Counted from the first letter of the stretch, positions 40,844-61,290 are shown. The stretch: 64,000 bases of DNA from Sulfurimonas sp. (GCA_030949825.1 JAUZSC010000002.1:1-64000); one strand, 5' to 3'. The notes: generated from the sequence alone by a model not told the origin. Program-made: numbers and translations.

Positions 40844-41894
40844 TTTAAAGCTTCCCTTATCTTTTTATATTCACAGTATATTTCATTTATGCTAATAGTT
40901 GTTAAACAAATAATGCTTTTAAATACTTATTCAATATCTTCTATAGTTTTTCTTTTCTTATTGGCTTTGAAAGGTAATCGTCTAGCCCTTCTGCAAGTAA
41001 CTTTTCTCTATCCCCTTGCATTGCCATAGCAGTAAAAGCAACAATAGGTGTGTTAGCGTTTAAATCGACTTTTTCCTTGATTTCTTTGCTTGCAACGATT
41101 CCATTTTTCTCAGGCATATCAATATCCATAAACACTATATCAAACTTATTTTTTACACACATCGCAATAGCTTCATTTCCATTTACTGCAGTCATAACCG
41201 ATATATTATATCCCTTGAGCATAATTTGCATAAGTCTTTGGTTGATTAGATTGTCTTCGACTAAGAGTGCTCTTACCTCATCCTTAATAATTAACTTATT
41301 TTTTGTAGTGAGCTCAAGGTCTACACTGTGTATAAAATTTAAATGCTTGGATAATTCACTTGGAAACAAAGGAGCTTGCATTACTTCATCAATAACATGT
41401 GTTAATTTTGTTTGCAATTTTTCACCTTCATGCAAATACATAATAACTGGTGTTTTTTTACCTAATGTACCAAGTTTAAACATCCACGAAGAATCACTTT
41501 GGTTTGCAATTATATATAAACTATCTATACCTTTATAAATCTCTTCATCTAGAATATTTGACTTTATAACATCAATCCCAAAAGAGCGTAAGTATGCACA
41601 AAGAAAATTCGCTTCATCTATCTTGGTTTTATCAAGTAATAAAACCCGTACCTTTTTCTTTTGCATCATCTTATATGCTTGCCCTGTAGAATCATTAAAT
41701 TTAAGTACAAAATTAAAAGAGCTTCCACTTCCCTCTTCGCTTTTAATATTAAGTTCACTTTCAAAGAGTTTAACCAAACCATTACAAAGACTAAGCCCTA
41801 CTCCTAGCTTTTCATCTGCATGATTTCCAGAGTTAAATGGTTCAAGTATATACTTTAAGTCTTTTTTAGAGATGCCCTTTCCTGTGTCTTTAAT

Positions 41895-43423
41895 GAGACC
41901 ACAGCACAACCCCAAACACTACCCCAATCCTAATTTTAAAATATTTTTTTGAAATCTCTAAAATATATCTGCTTAATTTTCATCATAAATTGTTTCTCAC
42001 CCTTAAAGTTATCTAAATACCCTTTATTTCTTATCATATTTCCTAGCTATTTCTTACTTTTCGTAAGGCTATTTGTTTATGGGCAAATAGTTTTAGGTTT
42101 GAGGCTAAGCAAGCTATTGTAAAATTCATATTATTGCGGACTAATCCAGTATACCTATTGGTATGATATTTCATTTGGGCTTTTAGACGCGCAAAGCTAT
42201 GTTCAACCTTTGCCCTGATTTTATGTTTTGGTTTTTCTATCTCTCTTTGTGCTGCTCTCTCATCCTTAGTCATCTTCTGTGTCTCTTTGAGACAAATCTC
42301 ATTTTCTATTTCATTCTTCTCTAATAGTTCATCTACTTCTTTAGACTTGTATGCTTTATCTCCATAGAATGCTTCTATATCTTCCAGCTCTTCTACGATG
42401 GTTTGGACAACTGATATGTCAGATGTATTTGCAAATGTCATTATTGGTTTTAGTATTGCACCAGAGTCTGAGTCTGTTGCTATGTGTCCCTTGTATCCTG
42501 TTGCATATTGCTTTGTACCAGTTTGATATCCTGTTCTTACCTCTTTATCTACTTTGTCGGTTTGATCATAACTATCTTCGCTATTTTCTATAATATTTTT
42601 TGAGGTCTCGATATCTTTAGTATCTATGCCTTGTAGTTCATCTAGCTCTTGATTTTTAAATGTTCTTGAGTTATGTTCTTTCTTTCGTAATAATTTATCT
42701 ACTTTTTTTCTTGATGGTTTTGCTTTCTTGAGTTCTTCATTTATTTGTAAGTCAAGGGTTCTATTGGCTTCTTCTACTTTTACTCTATTGGCATTTCTTT
42801 GCTCTTTATCCTTATCTTTAACTCCATCATTCAAAGATTTAATTAAAGTTGCGTCTACTAAAATTGATTTACCACTTTTAGCTATTAAGCCTTTATCTTC
42901 TAGTTGTTTATTTACATGGTTAAATAGCTTATCATATATTTTAGTATCTATCAAAGAGTTCCTAAATCTACCTATGGTTGTACTATCAGGAGCTAAGTCC
43001 TCTAGGCTTAAACCTACGAATTTCATAAACAGTAAGTTTACATAAAGTGCTTCTTCAACCTTTTCGTCACTCAGGTCATAGAATTTTTGCAAGAGTAATA
43101 TTTTAAACATAAGGATATTGTCATAAGCTTTTACTCCACAAACATTCTTTGTACCGATACCATTCTTATTTAAAATAGGTTTTAACTTTCTAAAATCTAT
43201 TATACTATCTATCTCTTTTAGAAATGAATCTACATATTGAAGTCTATCGTTAACAGCATAATCTGTAAATGTTGGAGTATTCTCTTGAAATGCCAAATTA
43301 TTGCCTTTTAGCTTAAAATATCTTTAAATTCGTGGTGTAATTATAGCAAATAAATGGCTTTAAATAACTTAATATAAGGGGTTTTAAGAGATTTAGTTTG
43401 TTTTTTTACTGTGCAGTGGTCTC
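41895..43423 (-). mobile_element. IS5-family-like insertion sequence, 1529 bp, complete
   Basis: The imperfect terminal inverted repeats are GAGACCACAGCACAAC (left) and GAGACCACTGCACAGT (right, reverse complement). They are flanked by a 5-bp direct repeat TTAAT at 41890-41894 and 43424-43428, the target duplication. One transposase gene fills it. The host is a hybrid kinase gene whose sequence rejoins in frame when the element is removed. The family call rests on the transposase; the intact ORF suggests recent arrival. Confidence 0.92.
42043..43296 (-). CDS. IS5-like transposase
   Basis: The 417 residues have an N-terminal DUF772-like region (YDNILMFKILLLQKFYDLSD; PDSTTIGRFRNSL), a DDE domain with the first Asp in KSILVDATLIKS, a second in the GYKGHIATDSDSG region, and Glu in KHKIRAKVEHSFARLK. 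A lysine-rich insert (residues about 165-250) separates them. It is intact and in one frame, so it is probably active. The transposase cuts at the element ends given above. Confidence 0.88.
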   Translation of the reverse strand: MAFQENTPTFTDYAVNDRLQYVDSFLKEIDSIIDFRKLKPILNKNGIGTKNVCGVKAYDNILMFKILLLQKFYDLSDEKVEEALYVNLLFMKFVGLSLEDLAPDSTTIGRFRNSLIDTKIYDKLFNHVNKQLEDKGLIAKSGKSILVDATLIKSLNDGVKDKDKEQRNANRVKVEEANRTLDLQINEELKKAKPSRKKVDKLLRKKEHNSRTFKNQELDELQGIDTKDIETSKNIIENSEDSYDQTDKVDKEVRTGYQTGTKQYATGYKGHIATDSDSGAILKPIMTFANTSDISVVQTIVEELEDIEAFYGDKAYKSKEVDELLEKNEIENEICLKETQKMTKDERAAQREIEKPKHKIRAKVEHSFARLKAQMKYHTNRYTGLVRNNMNFTIACLASNLKLFAHKQIALRKVRNS

Positions 43424-44432
43424 TTAATACTAAATCTAATATTACATGCACCACTAACTTGTCTTTTTAAAAGCTTTATTTCAACAATTATTCTTCCACC
43501 TCTTGGTGTAAACTTAATTGCATTTTGGATTAAGGAGTTCATCATTTGTTTGATTTTTCTCAAATCAGAATTAATTTCTTGTGGTAATTTAGGATCAATA
43601 AAGCTCAAAACCTTTATACCTCTTTCTTTTGCAAGCGTCATATGACTGTATATAAGTTCTTCCATTTGAGGAATGATTTCAAAATTTGCATTATCTATGG
43701 TCAGTCTTCCACCTTGCAACTGTGAAAGATCTAAAAGTGTTTCAATATTTGACATCAAGCTACGAGAAGAGTCTTCAATCAGCTTTAAATATTCTGCTTG
43801 TGTTTTGTTAATATTTGTTTGTGAGAGTAAGTCTATAAAGCCTATAATCCCGTTCATAGGTGTACGGAACTCATGTCCAATATTTGAAAGAAACTTTATT
43901 TTTAATTTTTGCACTTCTTTTACTTCTTGTTTAGCTTGAAGTATTTTACTAATGTCTTGTATTTCTAAAATACAAATATCCTTCGTACTTTAAATACTTT
44001 TACATTTTACTAGAGCATCTATAATTTCACTTTTTTCATTATACAAGCGAAGTTCATAACCTTTCGTCTTATGTTTTTTAATATACTCTAACCAAGAGCT
44101 ATCATCTTCTGTGAAAATCTCTTCACTTTCACTCAAAAACATATCTCGAACGCTTATATGTTGTCTACGAAAATCATGAATATCTTTATATCCAAAGACA
44201 TCAAAAAAGCTTTTACTTCCTCCTATCCAGCCATTTTTTTTACTATAAACTAAAATCATACTAGTACTAATATTTAAAATATCTATAAGTAACTGATTGT
44301 TAAATAAATCGCTAAATTTTTCAATTCCATCTTTCGTTTGTTTTTTTTAGAAAAAAAAGAAAAAATACCCATAAACTTTCCTCTATATAATTTTTACTTA
44401 TTTGATTATAGCATAAAGTATAATCTGCTAGA

Positions 44433-46137: not shown

Positions 46138-49088
46138 ATGAAATTAAGCATAACTAAAAAAATATCGTTGCTAGTCAGTGTTCCTCTCATTACCATCGTT
46201 CTTTTTTCCCTTAACCATATTTATGAGAAAAGGAATATCCTCGAGTTGTATAAAAAAGAACTTTCTAGCTTAAGCATTATGCGTAAGGGAAGTCAACTTT
46301 TACATGAGCTACAAATAGAAAGAGGTTTAAGTGCTGGTTATTTATATGAAGATGCTAATCCTGAACTCGCGCGTATGCTCTTAGAACAGTATAAAACTAC
46401 CGATAAAGAACTCTTAAAAGTCATCTCTTATATTCAGACAACAGATGAAACACTTCTCTCAGATACTAATTATAAATATCTACAGGCACTCAAAAATAAT
46501 ATTTCCAAACTATCCACTATTCGAGAAGAAGTTAAAACACATACTATACAACAAAAAGCTTCTTTTGATTACTATTCCCTCACAAACAAAAATATCATCG
46601 CCCTGTATAAAGGTCTCAACCTTCAAACCAATTCAAAAAAAATCAATGCAGATATACAGGTATTAAATATTTTAGTAAGCATGCAGGAAACTGCTGGGCA
46701 AGAAAGAGCCTTGTCTCTAAACTTACTTAATACAAAAAAAATATCCAACACAGATAAAATTCTTTACCATAAACTCATTGCCTTACAAGATGATCAATAC
46801 TTACAACTCAATATTTTACTCAGTGAACTTAAACAAGATACTGCCTTAAAAAAGATTCATACAAAATATGCCAATAACTTTTTTATGCACATTCGTAAAA
46901 GACTTATGGATACTACCCTGCAAAGCGATACAGCTATGTCAGAAGTTAAAGACCTAGCCCAAGTTAGAAGCCAATGGATTAAAGTAAGTACAAACAGGAT
47001 AAATGCAATCCATCGGATAGAAGGAAAAATATTTTCTCGTATTCACCAATATATACAAAAGGATATTGAAGCTAATTTCAATGCACTGATGCTACAAGTT
47101 TCCATCACTATCCTTACCATTATTTTACTTCTTTTAAGCACGCGGTATATTACTAAAAAAATTAGATATTCAATCGCCCAACTTGAACTAGGCTTAGATG
47201 ACTTTTTTAATTTTTTAAATAGTAAAAGTGAAAAATCAAAAGATATACAAACAAACTCAGATGATGAAATAAACGATATGGCGCAAAGGATTAATGCGCA
47301 GAGAAAAAGAATTGAGCAGCATCTTGAAGAAGATATTGATTTTATTCATGAAATTACGCATATCGTTACATTAATGAAAGATGGTGATTTTTCTGAACGA
47401 CCTTATTTTGAGCCTTACAATCCTCACCTCAGAGAACTTAAAGATGTGTTTAATCAACTTACAGACCTTATCTCACAAAAGATAAAAGAACAAACAGATT
47501 CTCTTGAAGATTTAAATAATTCTCTTGAAGAACGCGTGCATTTTCAAACACTTGAACTCGAAAAACAGATTCAGGAGATTACCATTGCTATGGAAAAAGC
47601 TGTTCAAGCTGAGATAGCAAAAGATGAATTTCTTGCAAATATGTCCCATGAAATCAGAACACCACTCAATGCTATCTTAGGCTTTGTAACTATCTTGAAA
47701 AAAATAACCAAAGAAGAAAAGCCATTACATTATTTAAATATAATCGATACGAGTGGAAAATCTCTTTTAAGCATCATCAATGATATTTTAGATTTTTCTA
47801 AAATTCAAAGTGGAAAGTTCACCATTGCTCCACATCCCGTTAACCTCGTTGAGTCTATGAGTAATGCTTCTTTATTGTTTGCATCTAAAGCATATGAAAA
47901 ATATATTGTACTCGCAGTTTACATTGATCCACATATGCCACAAAAGATAAATATCGATTCAGTCCGACTTATACAGATTTTTTCAAACCTTTTGAGTAAT
48001 GCCATTAAATTCACTCCTAATGATGGAAGTATCGAAGTTGATGTCACATGTTCAGATGCTGTCGTCACCCTTAGGGTTAAAGATACTGGAATCGGTATTG
48101 CAGAGGACAATATTTCTAAGGTTTTTTCCGCCTTTGAACAAGCCGATGGTTCTACCACTAGAAAGTACGGGGGAACAGGGCTCGGTCTATCAATATCCTA
48201 TAAACTTGCTAAGCTTATGGGTGGAGACATCACACTTAGTTCAGAGCTTGGAGTTGGTTCAACATTTACAGTAACATTACCAGTAGAGATTCTTGATAAA
48301 AAAGCTGAAGTTTTTATAGAAAAAGAGAAAATAGAAGACTACACCGTAGCAATTCTTGATAACGCTAAGAAAAAAAAATAGAAGAGGGCTGATAGAGAAG
48401 TATCTCAATGATTTTGGAATACATAAAATTTTACAACTCAGTGCATTTCAAACTGAGGGCTATGATTTATTATTTTTTACGCCTGATGATGAATACAATG
48501 AAGATATCGTTTATTCTAAAATACCTGCTATTGCCCTTTTGAGAAGCTCTTCTATAAAATTAGCCGATCTTTCACACGTAAACCCGCTTTATCTACCCTA
48601 CACTCCAATCAGTATAATCAAGGCTATCAAAGATTCTATGCATGCTCAAATACTCGAGCGAAAAGAAAAAATAATTCTAGAAGAAGAAGAAAATCAGATA
48701 GAATTTATTGGCTCTATCTTAGTAGCAGAAGACAACAAAACGAACCAGATGCTGATCTCTTTGATTTTAGATGACTATGGACTTGATTTCACTATGGCTA
48801 ACGATGGTGTCCAAGCAGTAGACTTGTTTAAAAAAAGGCGGATTCGACCTTGTTCTTATGGATGAAAATATGCCTGAGCTTAATGGTATTGGGGCGATGC
48901 AACTCATAAAAGCTTATGAAAAAGAAAATGATTTAAACATGACCCCAATCATTGCACTCACGGCTAGTGTACTAGAAGCAGACAAGAAAAAGTTTACAGA
49001 TGCTGGTATGGATGGCTTTGTAGCAAAACCTATTGACACAAAAGAACTAGAATCCGAACTTGGACGATTTTTAAAACAAAAGGACTAA
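46138..49088 (+). CDS. NIT-domain hybrid histidine kinase, frame broken at two poly-A tracts
   Basis: The order is an N-terminal helix, a periplasmic NIT (nitrate/nitrite sensor-like) domain (LQIERGLSAGYL; QETAGQERALSLN), a second helix near 320-340, a HAMP region, a coiled coil, HisKA (MSHEIRTPLNAILGF), HATPase (VKDTGIGI; KYGGTGLGLSI), a degenerate receiver, then a receiver with LMDENMPELNG. Frames break at nine As (48370-48378) and seven As (48830-48836). One base fewer in each gives about 982 residues. As sequenced, the kinase part is whole but its receiver output is separated, so activity could switch with tract length. Confidence 0.85.
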
Positions 49089-49383: not shown

Positions 49384-49396
49384 TACAAAGAGACAT

Positions 49397-50773
49397 ATGA
49401 AACAAAAAAATGAACTCCTCACAAAAGATATAAAAAAACTCATCATCCAAATAGCAATTCCTTCAAGTATTGGGATGTTTTTTAACACTATGTATAATGT
49501 TGTTGATACATTTTATATAGGTCAAATTTCCACTGCCGCCATTTCTGCACTCTCTTATAGTTTTATGGTATTTTTCTTACTGCTTTCGATTAGTTTTGGT
49601 TTATCTTCGGCAATAACTGCTTATGTTGGTGGAGCTCTTGGTAAACATAAAAAGCTCATGGCGCGCATCTATGTATCCAACGGAATAAGTTTATTTATTT
49701 TTATCTCCTTTTTTCTAAGCCTTGTAAGTTTTATTCTTTTAGAAAAAGTATTTATGCTTATGGGTGCAAAAGCGGAGGTGTTGCAATACGCACTCGACTA
49801 TACATATATTATCATTATCGGAATATTTCCAATGCTTTTAGGACTTGGAGCCAATGCGGTTTTAATAGCCCTAGGAGATACTAAAAGTTATAGAAATATT
49901 CTCATAATTGGATTTTTCTTAAATCTAATCCTCGACCCTCTATTTATATATGGCTATAGTTTTATACCTGCATTTGGTGTACAAGGCGTTGCTATTGCTA
50001 CTGTTTTGATTCAGTTTATAACTTTTGTATATATACTTCAGAAGCTTTATCAAACAGGACTTTTTAACCTAAGCTTATTTTTAAAAAAACTACCCAATTT
50101 TAAAGCCTATAAACACTTAGCAGTCCAAGCAATACCTTCAAGTTTAAATATGTTTTTGATGTCCTTTGGAAGTATTATCACCATTTATTTTGTATCGTTT
50201 TACGGTGTTAACGCAGTAGCAGCTTTTGGTATAGGCTATAGAGTCGAACAAATCATCTTGCTCCCGATGCTAGGATTAAATACCGCTGTTATGACGATAG
50301 TATCCAATAACTTCGGTGCAAAAAACTTTTCTAGAATACAAGAAGTAATCAGCAGATCTTTAAAGTACGGTTATATTATGAGTGCTATAGGAGTATTACT
50401 TATCGCTGTATTTGGAAAATATCTTATAATGATTTTTGACACTAATCCAGAGGTAGTCGATACTGCGTATATCTATATAATATTTGAGAGTTTTATCTTT
50501 TTTGCATTTATAACTCTTTTTATATCAAACTCAACACTTCAAGGGATTAAAGAACCATTTATATTACCTTATATAAGTTTTTATAGGCAGATATTTATGC
50601 CATTGATTTTCTTTTATCTTGTTGTTCATGTTTATGATTTAGACATCATTTATTTATGGGTGAGCATGCTAGTTATTATTTCGAGTGCGGCTCTTTATGT
50701 AAAAATATATACGAATAGAAGAGTTATTCTCTTAAGTGAGAATCGCTTTAAAGATCAGAGCAAAAGCCTTTGA
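49397..50773 (+). CDS. MATE-family multidrug/cation antiporter
   Basis: This 458-residue protein has twelve hydrophobic segments and the MATE start (IAIPSSIGMFFNTMYNVVDTFYIGQ) split over helix 1. The internal repeat carries a related AIPSSLNMFLMSFG segment at the start of the second half. Such proteins export cationic compounds using a Na+ or H+ gradient; the substrate is unknown. It follows the small membrane protein by 14 bp. Confidence 0.85.
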   Translation: MKQKNELLTKDIKKLIIQIAIPSSIGMFFNTMYNVVDTFYIGQISTAAISALSYSFMVFFLLLSISFGLSSAITAYVGGALGKHKKLMARIYVSNGISLFIFISFFLSLVSFILLEKVFMLMGAKAEVLQYALDYTYIIIIGIFPMLLGLGANAVLIALGDTKSYRNILIIGFFLNLILDPLFIYGYSFIPAFGVQGVAIATVLIQFITFVYILQKLYQTGLFNLSLFLKKLPNFKAYKHLAVQAIPSSLNMFLMSFGSIITIYFVSFYGVNAVAAFGIGYRVEQIILLPMLGLNTAVMTIVSNNFGAKNFSRIQEVISRSLKYGYIMSAIGVLLIAVFGKYLIMIFDTNPEVVDTAYIYIIFESFIFFAFITLFISNSTLQGIKEPFILPYISFYRQIFMPLIFFYLVVHVYDLDIIYLWVSMLVIISSAALYVKIYTNRRVILLSENRFKDQSKSL

Positions 50774-50988
50774 AAGAGCCATGAAAGTAATTTGATACCA
50801 AAATCCCGATATGTGAAAAGTATTTTTTTCAAAAAAGTAAAGACTAATACACTAAAAAATATAAATATCAATTGTCCAATTTCAATACCTATGTTAAAAT
50901 TGAATAAAGCTAATGGCAGTGGATATAATTTAGTTACAAATGTGTACTTCATTTGGACAACTAGCCTGACATCTACCGGTTTTGACAC
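50755..50988 (-). pseudogene. C-terminal remnant of a HupE/UreJ-like membrane protein
   Basis: A 77-codon frame (GTG start) contains YPLPLALFNFNIGIEIGQLI, closely resembling the final helices of HupE/UreJ-type proteins, where FNxGxExGQL is a hallmark. The usual first 100 or so residues are missing. It overlaps the end of the MATE gene by 19 bp and lies downstream of thioredoxin. I read it as a truncated leftover. Confidence 0.5.
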
Positions 50989-51003
50989 CTAAATTTATTT
51001 CTC

Positions 51004-51366
51004 TCATTCTTCATTGTTATTTAAAGCTTCACGCTCCTTATCCATATCAAGACACCTAACATGTGTAATAAGTTCATAAATCGCGGCATCTGTCAAAGTT
51101 CCTTCATGATTAATAACAATAATACCATCTCTCATAATCATTACAGTAGGAACTGAGATAACCCCATAATGTTTGGCGATAACAGACTGATCCTCTGTAT
51201 CAATTTTAGCAAAAACTACATCCGAGTAATACTCTGATGACTTTTCAAATATTGGGGCAAACTTTTGACAAGGTCCACACCATTGGGCCCAAAAGTTTAT
51301 TATCACGATTTCGTTATTATCCAGAACTTCATTAAAATTTTTAGTTGTTAAATCTATATAAGCCAT
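51004..51366 (-). CDS. thioredoxin-like protein
   Basis: The 120 residues form one thioredoxin fold with active site WAQWCGPCQKFAP and the cis-Pro loop VISVPTVMIM. The last 15 residues are acidic and helical (MDKEREALNNNEE), longer than classical TrxA. It is a cytoplasmic disulfide reductase. It follows the VWA gene by 51 bp on the same strand and may be read through from that cassette. Confidence 0.85.
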   Translation of the reverse strand: MAYIDLTTKNFNEVLDNNEIVIINFWAQWCGPCQKFAPIFEKSSEYYSDVVFAKIDTEDQSVIAKHYGVISVPTVMIMRDGIIVINHEGTLTDAAIYELITHVRCLDMDKEREALNNNEE

Positions 51367-51417
51367 AGTCTATCCTTTATTTTTAATCAGCGTATTATTT
51401 TACGCATTGTTTTCGTT

Positions 51418-52869
51418 TTACACACAAAACTTAATAACATGCATTTGCTGTTTTGGATATTGACTTACATCAAACAACAATCTACCTTTTTCCTCTACAA
51501 GCCAAATAACCTGTACTTTATTTGGAATTTTAACTTCTTTAAATTTTTTTTCTATATCTCCATCTGTAGCACATATTATCATATCAGGTATCTCGCGATT
51601 TGATTGCTCTAATAAGGCCTTAAAACCTGGTTCCATGATGGTTCCGCCACTACCTTGTCTCTTTATGAACTTATCTCGAACTCCAAATTTTTGTATATCT
51701 TTTATCTCAGCATCAACTTGCACGAGAGTAAGACTTTTAATAGAATATCTTCTCTGGATGGCTTGGATTTCAGACATCAAAAAGCTAAGAAGTCTGTCAT
51801 CAACAGAACCTGACACATCAAGTACGACGGCTAGTTTAGGTTGCTTTGTGTGGCTGTATCCATACAAGTCTAAATCATCTTGGAAAATGGGATGTTGTCT
51901 TGACTTATTTACTTCTCTGTAGCGTGTAGAATTATTGAAGGAGTTTCGCATCTTTTTGTTAAGTATCTTTTTCCAATCTTTGTGTGCGTTCTTTTTTTCA
52001 ATGTTACTGAGTACCCCAGTTGCAAGACCAGGTGTAAAACCTCTTGCAAAGTCTGTAGAATCATGTATCATTTCATTTAATGTGCTATCCATGAAAGAGT
52101 TAAATACATCATCATTAAGTTCCACGGCTTCTTGAAGCTGTTGACCATACTCATGGTTATCCATCTTACACTCACCATTTATTAAGGCTTCTAAGGTTTT
52201 ATCAGATAAAGATTTTGGCTCTGCATCTATCTCAGCATCAGAGCTATTATCTAAGTCATCGTTAGATGATTCATTATTGTCTTGTGCTTCTTCAAAAGAA
52301 CCTTCTTTTAAAGCTTCTTGTATTAGCTCTACATAATATTCAAACTCTCTCCCAACCTCATAAGTTTCGATTTGGTACTTTTGAAAAAGGGACTGATAAA
52401 AAAGTACTGCAATAGGCGAATCTTTATAGCTACCAGTACGAGGTAAGTCCTTAATATAAGGAACCTTTTTACATCCATTGATCACTATATCTTTTGCTGT
52501 TTGAATCACTTCTTTATTTATGCTCTTGTCGTAGTTTCCTCGAGCGAAGTGATGGTTAATTATATGTCCCGCACTATGTTTAAGTATGGCAATAATTTGG
52601 TCTTTATGGATGACTCCAAGTATCACTGGATTTACGACAATAACAAAATTTTTCCCATTAAAATAAACAGATGAAACAAATGATTCATCAAAGTGAAATT
52701 CATATTCACACCTGCTTAGAAAATTTGCATACCAAAGCAACTCATTTGTGTTAGTTGCTATCATAGAAATAATCATCTCTTTAAATACTGTTCTCCAACT
52801 TCTATCAGGGTTAGCAATGATAGACTCAATCGTTTTCATACTGTAGAGGTAGTCTTGATTACTGTTCAC
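51418..52869 (-). CDS. VWA / DUF2201-type protein, third gene of the MoxR cassette
   Basis: The 483 residues open with a metallopeptidase-like region at about 25-130 whose zinc motif has changed: ILKHSAGHIINHH (His98, Ser99, His102), where active relatives have HExxH. An acidic linker (195-220) follows, then a VWA-like domain with the MIDAS-type LDVSGSVDD (Asp351, Ser353, Ser355). MoxR ATPases typically remodel such VWA partners. It overlaps the ankyrin gene by 11 bp. Protease activity is unlikely as the Glu is missing. Confidence 0.78.
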   Translation of the reverse strand: MNSNQDYLYSMKTIESIIANPDRSWRTVFKEMIISMIATNTNELLWYANFLSRCEYEFHFDESFVSSVYFNGKNFVIVVNPVILGVIHKDQIIAILKHSAGHIINHHFARGNYDKSINKEVIQTAKDIVINGCKKVPYIKDLPRTGSYKDSPIAVLFYQSLFQKYQIETYEVGREFEYYVELIQEALKEGSFEEAQDNNESSNDDLDNSSDAEIDAEPKSLSDKTLEALINGECKMDNHEYGQQLQEAVELNDDVFNSFMDSTLNEMIHDSTDFARGFTPGLATGVLSNIEKKNAHKDWKKILNKKMRNSFNNSTRYREVNKSRQHPIFQDDLDLYGYSHTKQPKLAVVLDVSGSVDDRLLSFLMSEIQAIQRRYSIKSLTLVQVDAEIKDIQKFGVRDKFIKRQGSGGTIMEPGFKALLEQSNREIPDMIICATDGDIEKKFKEVKIPNKVQVIWLVEEKGRLLFDVSQYPKQQMHVIKFCV

Positions 52870-54325
52870 GGGATGCAGCCTCAGACATTTTTATAACATA
52901 AGGCAGTGTTGAAAACTCTGCAATTTTTTCTAAGACCTTTTCTTTTTCCTTACCTTCTCGCCTTGGGTAAACTTGCGTTGCTAAATAAATAGTATAGTTA
53001 AAGATATTTCTAATTTTTCTTCCCCACATATCAGAAAAGGAGGGATATTTTACCCTGTAGTCTAGTGGTAAGTTTCTTATACTGGTTATATCAAGACCTA
53101 ATTCTATAAGGTAGCTTATGCTTTCATAGGCATGGTGAGCATTCATTGCCTTATTTAGGTGCTCATTATACAAGCTGCTAAACTCTGTACCTGAAGCATG
53201 AAGATATTTTAGTATTTCTACATGATTTTCATTTATGATTTGAACAATAACATCAGTACCCAATAGGTCTAGATTAGCACCATTATTAACGGCTTGTCGT
53301 AAGTCTTTAAGATTGCCTTTAGTGGCAGAAACTTTCATTTTAGTAAAGTGTTGTGCTTGTATAGAAACACCTTTGTTGATAAAATGCTTTTGTAAGGATT
53401 CATTTTCATAGCTATAGGCTATTTCATAGGCATATTCTAAATCATCCATAGTCTTTAGTGCACTCAACACTTTAGTATAGTTAAAACATACTGCGTTTGC
53501 AATGATTAGCTTATTAAATATTATATTTGAATTTAAAATATATTCGATTATCTCGGAGTCAACATTTACATTTTTATAGTCTTGTGTTTTTGCGTAATAT
53601 CGACTGAGTACAGAATTAAGCGATTCATTTTTGTTTACCCCAATTAAAACCGAAAACTTCATCATGTTCAAATTATTAGTGTCTAATCCCATTCTAAACA
53701 AACGTGATTTGTCAGATTGATTCCAAGATTTAAATCCTTCTATAGCCTTGGGTCTTTCTAAATAATACTCAATGATAAATTGTAATAGATCATCTCTTTT
53801 ACTCTTTTTCTCCCCATGCGAGTTTATTGGAGATGAACCCATCCATTTACTTAAAATTTTGTTTGTATCCGCATGTATATTAAAACCATTTTCAATTAAC
53901 AATTGTAATATTTCTACACTAGCAATTGTTAAAATAGAATATACAAACAATGAAGCTGGTTTTACACCTTGCTTGATTGCTTGCTTTGCGAGGTCTAAAT
54001 CACCTATATTAATGGCGGCTAGAAGCATCCCTCTGAGAAGTTTTTCATCCTTACACGCTTCAAGGTTTGGAATTAAAATATGCAAATATTTTTTGTCTTT
54101 TTCTATGGCTTTTTGAAGCACATACTCTTTTATTGTAGCGTCAGACTCTAAGAGTAGATTAATAATTTGATGATTGCCTGAATGCACCGCTTTATCTAAG
54201 GCATTCTTAGGAAGGTGTATATTTAAGTTTACGTCAGCACCAAGAGCTAGCCACCGTTTGACCTCGTCAAAATTTCCATGCTCACACGCTTGCATGAGAT
54301 TTTCATGAAGGTAAGATGGTGTCAT
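52859..54325 (-). CDS. ankyrin-repeat protein, second gene of the MoxR cassette
   Basis: This 488-residue, almost wholly helical protein has recognisable ankyrin units, clearest near the start (ACEHGNFDEVKRWLALGADV; ALDKAVHSGNHQIINLLLES). More appear at about 330-400 (TKGNLKDLRQAVNNGANLDL; NHVEILKYLHASG). No enzyme domain is seen. It probably binds a partner or target for the MoxR/VWA pair. It starts one base after the MoxR gene and overlaps the VWA gene. Confidence 0.75.
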   Translation of the reverse strand: MTPSYLHENLMQACEHGNFDEVKRWLALGADVNLNIHLPKNALDKAVHSGNHQIINLLLESDATIKEYVLQKAIEKDKKYLHILIPNLEACKDEKLLRGMLLAAINIGDLDLAKQAIKQGVKPASLFVYSILTIASVEILQLLIENGFNIHADTNKILSKWMGSSPINSHGEKKSKRDDLLQFIIEYYLERPKAIEGFKSWNQSDKSRLFRMGLDTNNLNMMKFSVLIGVNKNESLNSVLSRYYAKTQDYKNVNVDSEIIEYILNSNIIFNKLIIANAVCFNYTKVLSALKTMDDLEYAYEIAYSYENESLQKHFINKGVSIQAQHFTKMKVSATKGNLKDLRQAVNNGANLDLLGTDVIVQIINENHVEILKYLHASGTEFSSLYNEHLNKAMNAHHAYESISYLIELGLDITSIRNLPLDYRVKYPSFSDMWGRKIRNIFNYTIYLATQVYPRREGKEKEKVLEKIAEFSTLPYVIKMSEAASREQ

Positions 54326-54326
54326 A

Positions 54327-55559
54327 TTATTGCCCTCGAAGGAGGTCTGCTACATAGGGGTTGGTTTTATTTATATGTTTCACTAAACCATTAGATAGTT
54401 TCTCATTGACACCTAAGCTATATTTTTCATCTACCTTATCTATAGAGGTTGAAGCCTGATTAATACCAATTTTTATTGACATAATGTGTTCCGCAGAACT
54501 TACATTAAGCATAATTGCAAATACATCATCGCTTACACTTTTAGCTTCAAGGGCGAAAAAGCAAGAGCTAAGAATATTCATCTGAGTTACGGGTTGAGCA
54601 CGATCCAATTGGGATTGTATTGATTCTATAAGTTCATTGTAATGAGAAGTATCATTCATTTGGTCTACTAAATATGCCTTGAAGTCTTTTTCTTTATGTA
54701 AGTGTAAAAAATCTGCAAGTTGCTTTTGAATTTTGCTGAAAACCAAAACTTTAGAGCTCTTAAGATAGTTAACAAGTTTAGGTGTAATGTCTCTACTAGA
54801 GAGGGTAGATAAAAGGCTTAGTAAGTTAGTATCACTTGTAGTATTTTTTTCATAAGAATACAGTAATCTAGAAATCATATCCCATCTTCTTGGATCCATT
54901 CCTGGATCACTCATATCATCTTCATTGCCTGCAAGTAAAAAGTCAGAACGATTATTATCAAGGTAGCTAATGATTAAGGGGTGAACCCTTTGTCTATTGT
55001 TTTTCTTATCGTGTATTAGAGCATAACTTTTTTTCCATGACTCAAGCGTAGCTGTAACCTTTACTATAGCCATGCGACTCAGCATTGCCTTATCAAGTGA
55101 TTCAACAAGGTAATTACCGTTATCTATGGGATTGCCAGCACAGACAATAAATAAAGACTCTGGTAATTTAATGCTATCGGAACCAAACTCTTTTTTAAGT
55201 ATTAGGTTCATTAAACTTTGAAGATTTTGTGGCTCAGCACGATTGAGCTCATCTATAAAAAGAAGCGTTTCTTTATTGTTTTTATCATTTTGAAGTATTG
55301 TTGATACCCAGTTAGGTATAGACTTCTTAAATACAGTAAATTTTTGATCATTAAAGCCTGCTACAATATCTGTTGAAACTGTCCTACCATAAAACTCTAT
55401 ATGATCTAAAGAAGCCACTCCCATAATGATACAATCCATTTCTTTTGACGCAGCATACTGCTCTATAATCGATGTCTTACCCATCCCAGACTCACCCTCT
55501 AAATAGGGGACAATTTGGGATTCTTTGTATATATCTAAATGTGAAAAATTAATGTTCAT
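54327..55559 (-). CDS. MoxR-type AAA+ ATPase, first gene of the cassette
   Basis: The 410 residues include Walker A EGESGMGKTS (about 21-30), Walker B LLFIDELNRAEP (99-110), sensor-1 Asn in CAGNP (143) and the arginine finger near MLSRMA (162). A helical lid and C-terminal region (to 410) follow. MoxR ATPases act as chaperone-like remodelers with VWA proteins. Its ATG is the very next base after the fba stop, so its ribosome site lies inside fba. Confidence 0.82.
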   Translation of the reverse strand: MNINFSHLDIYKESQIVPYLEGESGMGKTSIIEQYAASKEMDCIIMGVASLDHIEFYGRTVSTDIVAGFNDQKFTVFKKSIPNWVSTILQNDKNNKETLLFIDELNRAEPQNLQSLMNLILKKEFGSDSIKLPESLFIVCAGNPIDNGNYLVESLDKAMLSRMAIVKVTATLESWKKSYALIHDKKNNRQRVHPLIISYLDNNRSDFLLAGNEDDMSDPGMDPRRWDMISRLLYSYEKNTTSDTNLLSLLSTLSSRDITPKLVNYLKSSKVLVFSKIQKQLADFLHLHKEKDFKAYLVDQMNDTSHYNELIESIQSQLDRAQPVTQMNILSSCFFALEAKSVSDDVFAIMLNVSSAEHIMSIKIGINQASTSIDKVDEKYSLGVNEKLSNGLVKHINKTNPYVADLLRGQ

Positions 55560-56639
55560 CTAGTTTCTATCAAGCCCATTTAAATTCTGATACGCAACTT
55601 CCACACGAGAAACAAGTGTTTGCTGTCCAGCTCGTAACCATTTTCTAGGATCATAATATTTCTTATTTGGCTTTTCTTCACCATCAGGATTTCCTATTTG
55701 TGCTTGCATATAGTCTTTGTTTTTCTCATAGTAATCCTTTACACCTTCCCATGTAGCCCATTGTGTATCTGTGTCTATATTCATTTTGATAACACCATAA
55801 CCTATAGCTTCAGTTATCTCGCAGGGTTTAGAACCTGAACCACCGTGGAAAACAAAGTTTACTGGGTTTGGAAGTGTTTTAAATTTTTCTTCTATGTATT
55901 TTTGAGAATTATCTAAGATTTTTGGAGTTAGAGAAACATTCCCTGGTTTGTACACACCATGAACATTTCCAAATGAAGCAGCGATTGTAAAATGAGGAGA
56001 CACTGACATAAGTTCTTCATAAGCATATGCCACATCTTCAGGTTGTGTATAAAGAAGTGAATTATCCATATCTGTGTTGTCAACACCATCCTCTTCTCCG
56101 CCTGTACAACCGAGTTCTATTTCTATGCTCATGCCTATTTTTGCCATTCTTTTAAAGTAGGACTTACATGTAGCAATATTTTCTAAAAGCGATTCTTCTG
56201 AAAGGTCTAACATATGAGAAGAATAAAGAGGTTTCCCTTGTGACTCAAAATACGCTTCACCTGATTCTAAAAGTGCGTCGATCCAAGGAAGTAATTTTTT
56301 TGCTGCATGGTCCGTATGTAAAATAACAACTACACCGTAAGCTTCAGCCATCATATGTGTATGAATTGCACCTGAAACTGCCCCAATTATTGCTGCTTGC
56401 TCATTTTCATTTGACAAACCTTTACCCGCATAGTACGATGCTCCACCATTACTAAACTGGATAATTATCGGTGAGTTTACCTTCGCTGCTGCTTCTAAGA
56501 TAGCATTTACCGAATCTGTTCCAACAACATTTACAGCTGGAATTGCAAAACCTTCTTTTTTTGCATAATCATAAACCTTTTGAACATCATCTCCAAAAAT
56601 CACACCGGGGTTCACTATGTCTAAAATACCTTTGCTCAT
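55560..56639 (-). CDS. fbaA: class II fructose-bisphosphate aldolase
   Basis: This 359-residue zinc aldolase (class IIA) has its metal ligands in VILHTDHAAKK, the SHMLDLSEE loop, GCTGGEEDGVDNT, and the phosphate-binding HGGSGSKP and NIDTDTQWA. It makes or splits fructose 1,6-bisphosphate and is used in gluconeogenesis in autotrophs; the phosphofructokinase of this window acts at the next step. It is the leading gene of the string running into the MoxR cassette. Confidence 0.94.
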   Translation of the reverse strand: MSKGILDIVNPGVIFGDDVQKVYDYAKKEGFAIPAVNVVGTDSVNAILEAAAKVNSPIIIQFSNGGASYYAGKGLSNENEQAAIIGAVSGAIHTHMMAEAYGVVVILHTDHAAKKLLPWIDALLESGEAYFESQGKPLYSSHMLDLSEESLLENIATCKSYFKRMAKIGMSIEIELGCTGGEEDGVDNTDMDNSLLYTQPEDVAYAYEELMSVSPHFTIAASFGNVHGVYKPGNVSLTPKILDNSQKYIEEKFKTLPNPVNFVFHGGSGSKPCEITEAIGYGVIKMNIDTDTQWATWEGVKDYYEKNKDYMQAQIGNPDGEEKPNKKYYDPRKWLRAGQQTLVSRVEVAYQNLNGLDRN

Positions 56640-59847: not shown

Positions 59848-61290
59848 ATGAACCTTCCTTTCTTTGACGCGATTTTTAATCCTAACAAAAACAAAACATT
59901 ATCACTTCCTCAATCTTTACTTGTTAAAGAATTAAAAAAAACCTCTGACAATAATAATTTTTCTATTTTTGAGAACATCACACTCTACCACCATGAAAAG
60001 AATTTTTTCATTCCTCTTCTTATAGTAGATGCATCGCGAGGAATCTTTCTTTTTGAATATAAAGACTGGTCCTATGATGAACTAAAAAATGCAAAAATCG
60101 AAAAAGCCTCAAAGCAAAATGCTTCTACAAATACGCTTGCTTTTGAAAAGTCACATGATTTTATAAAAAGAAAGTTCAATGAATTAACACATAATGATGG
60201 TGTCCCCATCTATAACTATCTACTCATGGAAAATCTAAACCACGATGAATACCAGCATCTAGATGATTCATTTAAAACACTTTTGCCAGAAGAAAGAATA
60301 ATGTTTAATGACTCATCTGAAACAGACATCTTAAACAAAATGGTAGAAAGAGTGACTTATAATCTTCCAGATGTATCAAGTATAATGTCAACGCTGCTTA
60401 TTCAATACGCTATTATAGACCATAAAAAAAATATCTTTTTAGCAAGCCCCGAACAGATGCAATTTATTAATTCTGAGCTTGTTGCATCCATGACACTCAA
60501 AGCTCCATCAGGAAGTGGAAAAACAAGTTCTGTTCTTTTAAAAGCGATACTCGAAAAACTAAAAAACCCAAACATCAATATAGTTATTATTAAGCCCAAT
60601 AATCTTGCTTGTGATATTTTAAAGAAAAAGTTACTTGACACTATAGAACACGCGATAATAGAGATAGACCCAACATCTATAAATATTTTAACATCTCAGT
60701 ACTTCTTAGAAAATACGCCCAAAGCCATTGACTTATTAATTTGCGATGATATAGAATCGTATTCTTCAGACTTTATCTTGGATATAAAAAATATTAGAAA
60801 TAAAAAGCATCTAATTCTCGTTGAAAATTCAAATGCCCAAGATGAGATTAAATATTTTAATACAAGCTTTAGAGGTTACCACAAAGAAATTATTTTCCAT
60901 CGTACAAATGAGCATGCTAAAACATTACAAATAGTCTCAAATCTGCTTCTAACTTGCCAAGCACGAGATATACTTATTGTCTCAAATAATTTAACCAGAA
61001 GAACAATAAAAGATGATTTAGAAGATTTTACCGCTGAGAAGACTAGTTTACTCGATTACTCACAGAACTTAATGAACCAAAATATGGCAAATATTTTACT
61101 CGCTAGCTATGATGACATCAACTCTCTTGAAGCAAAATATGTTATTCTCATGGATATATGTTCCGCCGATAGACAAAAACTTGAATACGCATACCATTTA
61201 TGCTCAAAAAGTATCTATGTTTTATACAACAATGAATCAAAAAATCTAAATTTACTAAGGAATAATTTTGAAAGTAACAAAAACAGCTAA
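59848..61290 (+). CDS. compact NERD nuclease-like / SF1 helicase-like protein
   Basis: The 480 residues have an N-terminal region with D61 and E70-Y-K72 ([15 protein letters not shown]), the PD-(D/E)xK pattern of NERD domains. A P-loop at 219-226 (APSGSGKT), Walker-B-like [11 protein letters not shown] (294-304) and a late [11 protein letters not shown] resemble motif V of UvrD-like helicases with the usual Gly changed to Ser. It is about half the size of true UvrD helicases, so unwinding is doubtful. Its 3' end overlaps msrB by 23 bp. Confidence 0.6.

Follow-up and report, generated by a model that had tools for sequence, protein, structure and literature searches.

Modules that combine a MoxR-type AAA+ ATPase with a VWA-domain protein are widespread, and how they find their clients is mostly obscure. 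In the MoxR-vWA-centric ternary conflict systems (Kaur et al. 2020, PMC7159879), the ATPase and a VWA protein bearing a metal-ion-dependent adhesion site (MIDAS) are gene-linked to an obligate third protein of the VMAP, iSTAND, FtsH or beta-propeller type, which is thought to sense and coordinate; a variable effector lies C-terminal to the VWA domain, and the distribution is accessory. RavA-ViaA and CoxD-CoxE join a MoxR protein to a VWA partner in binary systems that have neither a zincin domain nor an ankyrin partner and are generally understood to be mostly core or enzyme-linked (see also PMC9489729). Phages, jumbo phages among them, carry pairs of MoxR and metallopeptidase-vWA proteins (PHROG 1297 and 1314), for which a role in virion assembly has been suggested (PMC7824862). 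Here, we describe a locus in a contig of a Sulfurimonas-type genome (GCA_030949825.1, JAUZSC010000002.1:1-64000; this whole stretch of 64,000 nucleotides is hereafter the window), where the minus strand carries a MoxR AAA+ gene, then an ankyrin gene, then a VWA gene. The first two are spaced by 1 bp and the last two overlap by 11 bp; coordinates and domains agree with those of a three-gene cassette outlined in a preliminary description of the locus.

The MoxR-ankyrin-VWA triplet is one obligate, co-inherited three-gene unit. By analogy, it works like the published ternary systems at the level of plan (PMC7159879; PMC12839542): it has the MoxR AAA+ ATPase, the MIDAS-bearing VWA protein and an obligate, gene-linked third component, and its distribution is accessory. 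The third protein is, in contrast, a free ankyrin solenoid, and the VWA domain is itself C-terminal, with no effector after it and a predicted dead zincin domain N-terminal to it. The triplet is not filed as a published ternary system because it departs from these systems in the type of third protein and in the C-terminal effector; no match to any of their third-component types was found in Pfam, NCBIfam or PADLOC. PADLOC and NCBIfam recognized none of the triplet proteins as part of a known system and returned only weak or partial matches, for instance of ankyrin type. The word 'ankyrin' is absent from the text of PMC7159879, and the open-licence literature searched contained nothing relevant on MoxR with an ankyrin partner or with DUF2201. 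The ankyrin-type set looks like a novel form of a class of remodelling or defence modules that is already known.

A three-gene unit that moves between genomes

The ankyrin family occurs in six of 60 related genomes. Profile searches for MoxR and VWA at stringent cut-offs returned exactly the same six, and none of the three genes was found in the remaining 54; identical presence sets would arise by chance with a probability of 2e-8 per gene pair, a figure that ignores phylogeny. A search for the ankyrin family across 84,980 species, each represented by a single genome, relied on two short peptide patterns and may have overlooked distant members; it yielded 11 loci, all from Sulfurimonas, Sulfurovum or unclassified Campylobacterales. 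Four of these are contigs already present among the 60 related genomes, for a total of 13 distinct genomes including the window. The three genes stand together in all 13 distinct loci as far as contig ends permit, always in the same order; the exceptions in integrity are one locus cut within MoxR and a frameshifted MoxR gene in genome G028. Every Sulfurimonas copy measured repeats the 1-bp gap and 11-bp overlap exactly, Sulfurovum comes close to them, and the pairwise distances of the MoxR, ankyrin and VWA proteins correlate with r of 0.95-0.99. The three genes are shown to be translationally linked, all-or-none and co-diverging. The search for the same triplet in other genomes, proposed in the preliminary description, thus places it outside the core genome, and close homologous loci do have the ankyrin gene.

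Campylobacterota commonly carry ankyrin genes, and one might suppose that this one has come to stand between MoxR and VWA genes by accident. Set against identical presence sets, fixed spacing and correlated divergence, such a coincidence is vanishingly improbable, and we exclude chance adjacency on the ground that all three genes fall in exactly the same six of 60 genomes. A second kind of ankyrin linkage, near chromosomal VWA genes (L059, L065, L068), was considered and rejected: the ankyrins are short, lie 2.5-4 kb off and are separated by intervening genes. Other ankyrin matches of the phylum, in the three genomes checked (G373, G328, G163), do not adjoin MoxR-VWA genes. G373 also has a different AAA+ machine beside an ankyrin gene (L159:3398-7679). 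Its 914 residues contain two AAA domains and an M41 (FtsH) peptidase, the ankyrin protein encoded after it is 503 aa long, and a probable WYL/HTH-type regulator lies upstream.

Four lines of evidence bear on how the triplet spreads. First, when the window genome is compared with five other Sulfurimonas genomes, the triplet diverges by 0.10-0.25 at four-fold degenerate sites, whereas the gene for class II fructose-bisphosphate aldolase (FBA) diverges by 0.51-0.56 in four of these pairs and purL/purH by 0.40-0.41 in the fifth; pfk gave 0.70 over few sites. The small sample of core genes is the main caveat of this contrast, in which silent-site divergence so far below that of core genes makes the triplet far too similar for vertical inheritance alone. 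Second, its neighbours change genome by genome: it lies beside FBA in the window, beside serS in G009 and beside purL in SI060, and further genes flank it elsewhere. Third, the empty site is visible: in most relatives the FBA gene directly abuts a 97-aa gene, and in the window the triplet, a thioredoxin gene and a MATE transporter gene lie between the two. Fourth, genes or remnants of mobile elements accompany two copies. Behind the VWA gene, SI060 has the degraded pseudogene of a tyrosine integrase plus two tRNA genes, and G009 has a thioredoxin gene, a second VWA 3' fragment and an IS256/Mutator transposase gene. The cassette is shown to be horizontally mobile between sulfur-oxidising bacteria, with different sites per genome. 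In G009, the thioredoxin gene is followed by a 93-residue VWA fragment (L011:6556-7205), a trace of a second cassette copy. Thioredoxin accompanies the triplet in three Sulfurimonas genomes, which share the right boundary GAGAGAAATAAATTTA and are unrelated in sequence beyond it; it is optional, since it is missing beside the remaining copies. A divergently oriented gene for a caspase-domain (Peptidase_C14) protein lies just upstream of MoxR in one genome (L012:6695-7714, G006).

In the window, the MoxR start codon immediately follows the FBA stop codon, and the leader of ~95 bp found at several other MoxR copies is gone. Because of this junction, expression probably depends on the FBA transcript, and the FBA gene and triplet are probably now co-transcribed. 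A promoter and terminator scan gave no more matches than expected by chance.

The position directly behind FBA, together with the thioredoxin gene beside three copies, is what one might expect of a maturation or stress chaperone like CoxD-CoxE or RavA-ViaA, which would activate an enzyme or membrane complex of the host, the ankyrin protein being the substrate adaptor. The characterised RavA-ViaA pair does act with respiratory complexes and membranes (PMC9489729, PMC10585395, PMC3893208). The evidence speaks against such a chaperone: no enzyme gene is linked to the triplet in all loci, the flanking genes vary, 54 of the 60 relatives do without it, and the low silent-site divergence shows recent transfer. 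We regard this explanation as somewhat unlikely.

Component proteins and their relatives

The MoxR protein matches AAA_5 (9e-7, above the Pfam cut-off) and, over its full length or nearly so, phrog_1297 (2.8e-42). It has a Walker A motif (GESGMGKT), a Walker B motif (LLFIDEL), the sensor-1 Asn, an Arg finger and a long C-terminal region. The Walker motifs, sensor 1, the Arg finger and the Arg of a PRRW motif are invariant across triplet, plasmid and phage proteins in a 12-row alignment. By these motifs the AAA+ ATPase is shown to be intact, and a VWA gene is linked to it in every locus where contig ends permit. A sequence search of solved structures with the MoxR and VWA profiles gave no match.

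The VWA protein, of the DUF2201/COG3864 zincin-VWA kind, carries DUF2201 (1.7e-13, residues 346-460 of 483) and matches phrog_1314 over its full or nearly full length (4.8e-39). The MIDAS residues of this C-terminal domain (DVSGS...GGT...TDGD) are intact, with DVSGS, GGT and TDG conserved; nothing recognisable by Pfam as an effector domain follows. The metallopeptidase-like N-terminus described earlier stands as a similarity to DUF2201_N ('putative metallopeptidase'; 6e-4, under the Pfam cut-off), without the catalytic motif that the name implies. Its zincin motif reads HSAGH in 11 of 12 distinct triplet proteins and HNAGH in the other, in place of the HExxH of an active metallopeptidase, which is kept in all 11 relatives (eight phage, three plasmid). 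Both zinc-ligand histidines are retained, but the catalytic Glu, the base, is missing, so peptidase activity is not expected and the domain is predicted to be a dead enzyme.

The middle protein matches Ank_4 (8e-11), with an Ank match at the N-terminus. Its AlphaFold2 (AF2) model (mean pLDDT 89.4) is an all-helical repeat solenoid over the whole length, and Foldseek places it with ankyrins and designed ankyrin repeat proteins (DARPins) at an E-value of 2e-6; TM-scores are low, probably because long solenoids differ in curvature. On this model, the protein is predicted to be one continuous ankyrin solenoid. Its evolution has been more rapid than that of MoxR and VWA (mean entropy 0.34 vs 0.19 and 0.21) but even along its length. 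Two loci hold a second ankyrin gene, in tandem in L009 and upstream of MoxR in L023. In either case the extra copy is without the N-terminal ~95 residues, which suggests that the part needed by the machine lies within the C-terminal ~390 residues.

Other Campylobacterota carry binary MoxR-VWA pairs. In the VWA tree, most of their chromosomal pairs form one clade apart from the triplet (split support 100), and chromosomal L060 and L061 sit elsewhere on long branches. The triplet protein falls among proteins of phages (AR9/BpSp, KT1024/AD45) and of an Arcobacter plasmid. The phage pairs resemble the triplet in the zincin-then-VWA order, in the full-length profile match and in the adjacency of the genes in Bacillus phage AR9 (gp028/gp029) and several others; they differ in keeping HExxH, in having no intervening ankyrin gene and in an identity of only 22-26%. 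PHROG 1314 proteins, such as NC_031039.1 gp029 (L076:5824-7248), are labelled 'HNH endonuclease', also in RefSeq-style phage records; by Pfam they are DUF2201_N/DUF2201 (metallopeptidase and VWA) proteins, and the label is an apparent misannotation.

Arcobacter plasmid p82 (CP134857; L075/L080) carries an AAA - 330 aa - VWA set with the triplet's order, compactness and VWA architecture. The middle protein is, in contrast, not an ankyrin by Pfam, the zincin motif is intact (HEAMH), and a WYL-domain regulator lies upstream. The plasmid (83 kb) also encodes type I restriction-modification (R-M), III-B CRISPR-Cas and a CARF protein, and its set is a candidate defence system of its own. On a Sphaerotilus plasmid (NZ_CP035707; L079:2379-6534), a 592-aa protein lacking a Pfam match stands in a compact row with MoxR and a zincin-VWA protein, flanked by Sir2/DUF4804 genes and a GmrSD restriction gene. 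From these three cases, a plan of MoxR plus zincin-VWA plus a third protein that varies appears to recur, with the ankyrin set as one instance.

The affinity to pairs proposed for virion assembly, the integrase remnant and tRNA genes at one copy and the insertion sequence at another could also mean that the triplet is cargo serving an element, helping a phage satellite or integrative element to assemble, transfer or replicate, with the chromosomal copies as remnants. We consider this unlikely. None of the copies has a phage or conjugation gene next to it; neither the VWA nor the ankyrin family was found in viral contigs (IMG/VR), and the ankyrin protein has no relative in the plasmid collection. 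In almost all copies, moreover, the genes are intact and under constraint, and the ATPase motifs do not vary, which argues that the cassette is maintained on its own.

Proposed function

We tentatively read the triplet as a horizontally mobile, ankyrin-targeted, ATP-driven remodelling module, an accessory cassette that is probably conflict-related; as a whole this seems to us quite possible. The MoxR ring would hydrolyse ATP to remodel a client, which the ankyrin solenoid would select and deliver as a specific protein. The VWA protein would use its MIDAS to dock client or adaptor on the ring, and the dead zincin domain would only bind, either metal or peptide. More speculatively, the cassette may act in conflict with phage or mobile elements; it might, for instance, trap or dismantle a protein of the invader.

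By analogy, a role in conflict appears the most likely one, ahead of a conserved metabolic maturation step, because of the mobility, the patchy presence, the plan-level likeness to MoxR-vWA ternary systems and the plasmid relative. Mobile, patchily distributed accessory genes are a defence-type trait, and together with the defence-rich Arcobacter plasmid this suggests a defence role. It is conceivable, though rather doubtful, that bacteria captured a phage-type pair of MoxR and zincin-VWA proteins for virion assembly, that the peptidase was lost and an ankyrin adaptor gained, and that the result is now a mobile anti-phage module that dismantles or sequesters phage proteins without a nuclease or toxin.

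Several observations weigh against a targeted conflict module. No hypervariable surface block, as expected of an arms-race sensor, was found in the ankyrin protein, and neither an effector domain nor a toxin is recognisable in the triplet. R-M genes or fragments lie near only two of eight Sulfurimonas loci (G010, SI060), counts that carry no background rate, and the copy in the window lies behind the aldolase gene with core genes around it. The exact sister of the triplet VWA protein has a low support of 42, the low identity to the phage pairs marks a weak affinity, and the AF2 model of the VWA protein, built with 12 close sequences, is too poor to confirm the zincin fold (pLDDT 46). The preliminary description had seen in the ankyrin protein a dedicated target-recognition arm of an unusual three-part remodelling or defence module. 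Its dedicated, obligate place in an unusual three-part unit holds, whereas target recognition and a defence role are candidate readings. Most copies do not appear to lie in defence islands. Absent from that description are the predicted loss of catalysis in the peptidase-like domain, the horizontal mobility of the cassette, and the fact that the nearest MoxR-VWA relatives found are phage- and plasmid-borne.

A compact mobile set with a dedicated solenoid adaptor and a peptidase domain predicted to be naturally dead isolates the question of client finding. The ankyrin protein lends itself to swapping, truncation and use as bait, and a set of three genes this small could be moved to a laboratory strain. 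If the defence reading is true, the triplet would add a fifth kind to the MoxR-vWA ternary systems, and one from bacteria that do not belong to the multicellular groups in which the other kinds concentrate.

The window around the cassette

The features of the locus are collected below.

Features of the cassette and its flanks in the window
Feature	Position	Strand	Basis or remark
MoxR-type AAA+ ATPase, 410 aa	54327..55559	-	Pfam, PHROG 1297, motif alignment, junction
Ankyrin solenoid protein (predicted), 488 aa	52859..54325	-	Obligate middle gene; Pfam, AF2, Foldseek
VWA protein, 483 aa, GTG start	51418..52869	-	DUF2201_N zincin-like N-terminus, DUF2201 VWA C-terminus; Pfam, PHROG 1314
Thioredoxin, 120 aa	51004..51366	-	Optional companion of the triplet
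MATE transporter gene	49397-50773		Part of segment 49384..55559
Segment missing from the same site in most relatives	49384..55559	.	Thioredoxin, triplet and MATE gene
Class II fructose-bisphosphate aldolase (FBA)	55560..56639	-	Core gene, flank

Elsewhere in the window, a plus-strand gene (59848-61290) encodes a 480-aa protein with weak NERD and UvrD-like helicase matches that is GajB-like in PADLOC (5e-5). A hybrid histidine kinase gene (40941-43914) is apparently interrupted by a transposase gene at 42043-43296, and a NIT-domain hybrid sensor kinase gene (46138-48865) is apparently split into two frames (46138-48381 and 48356-48865).

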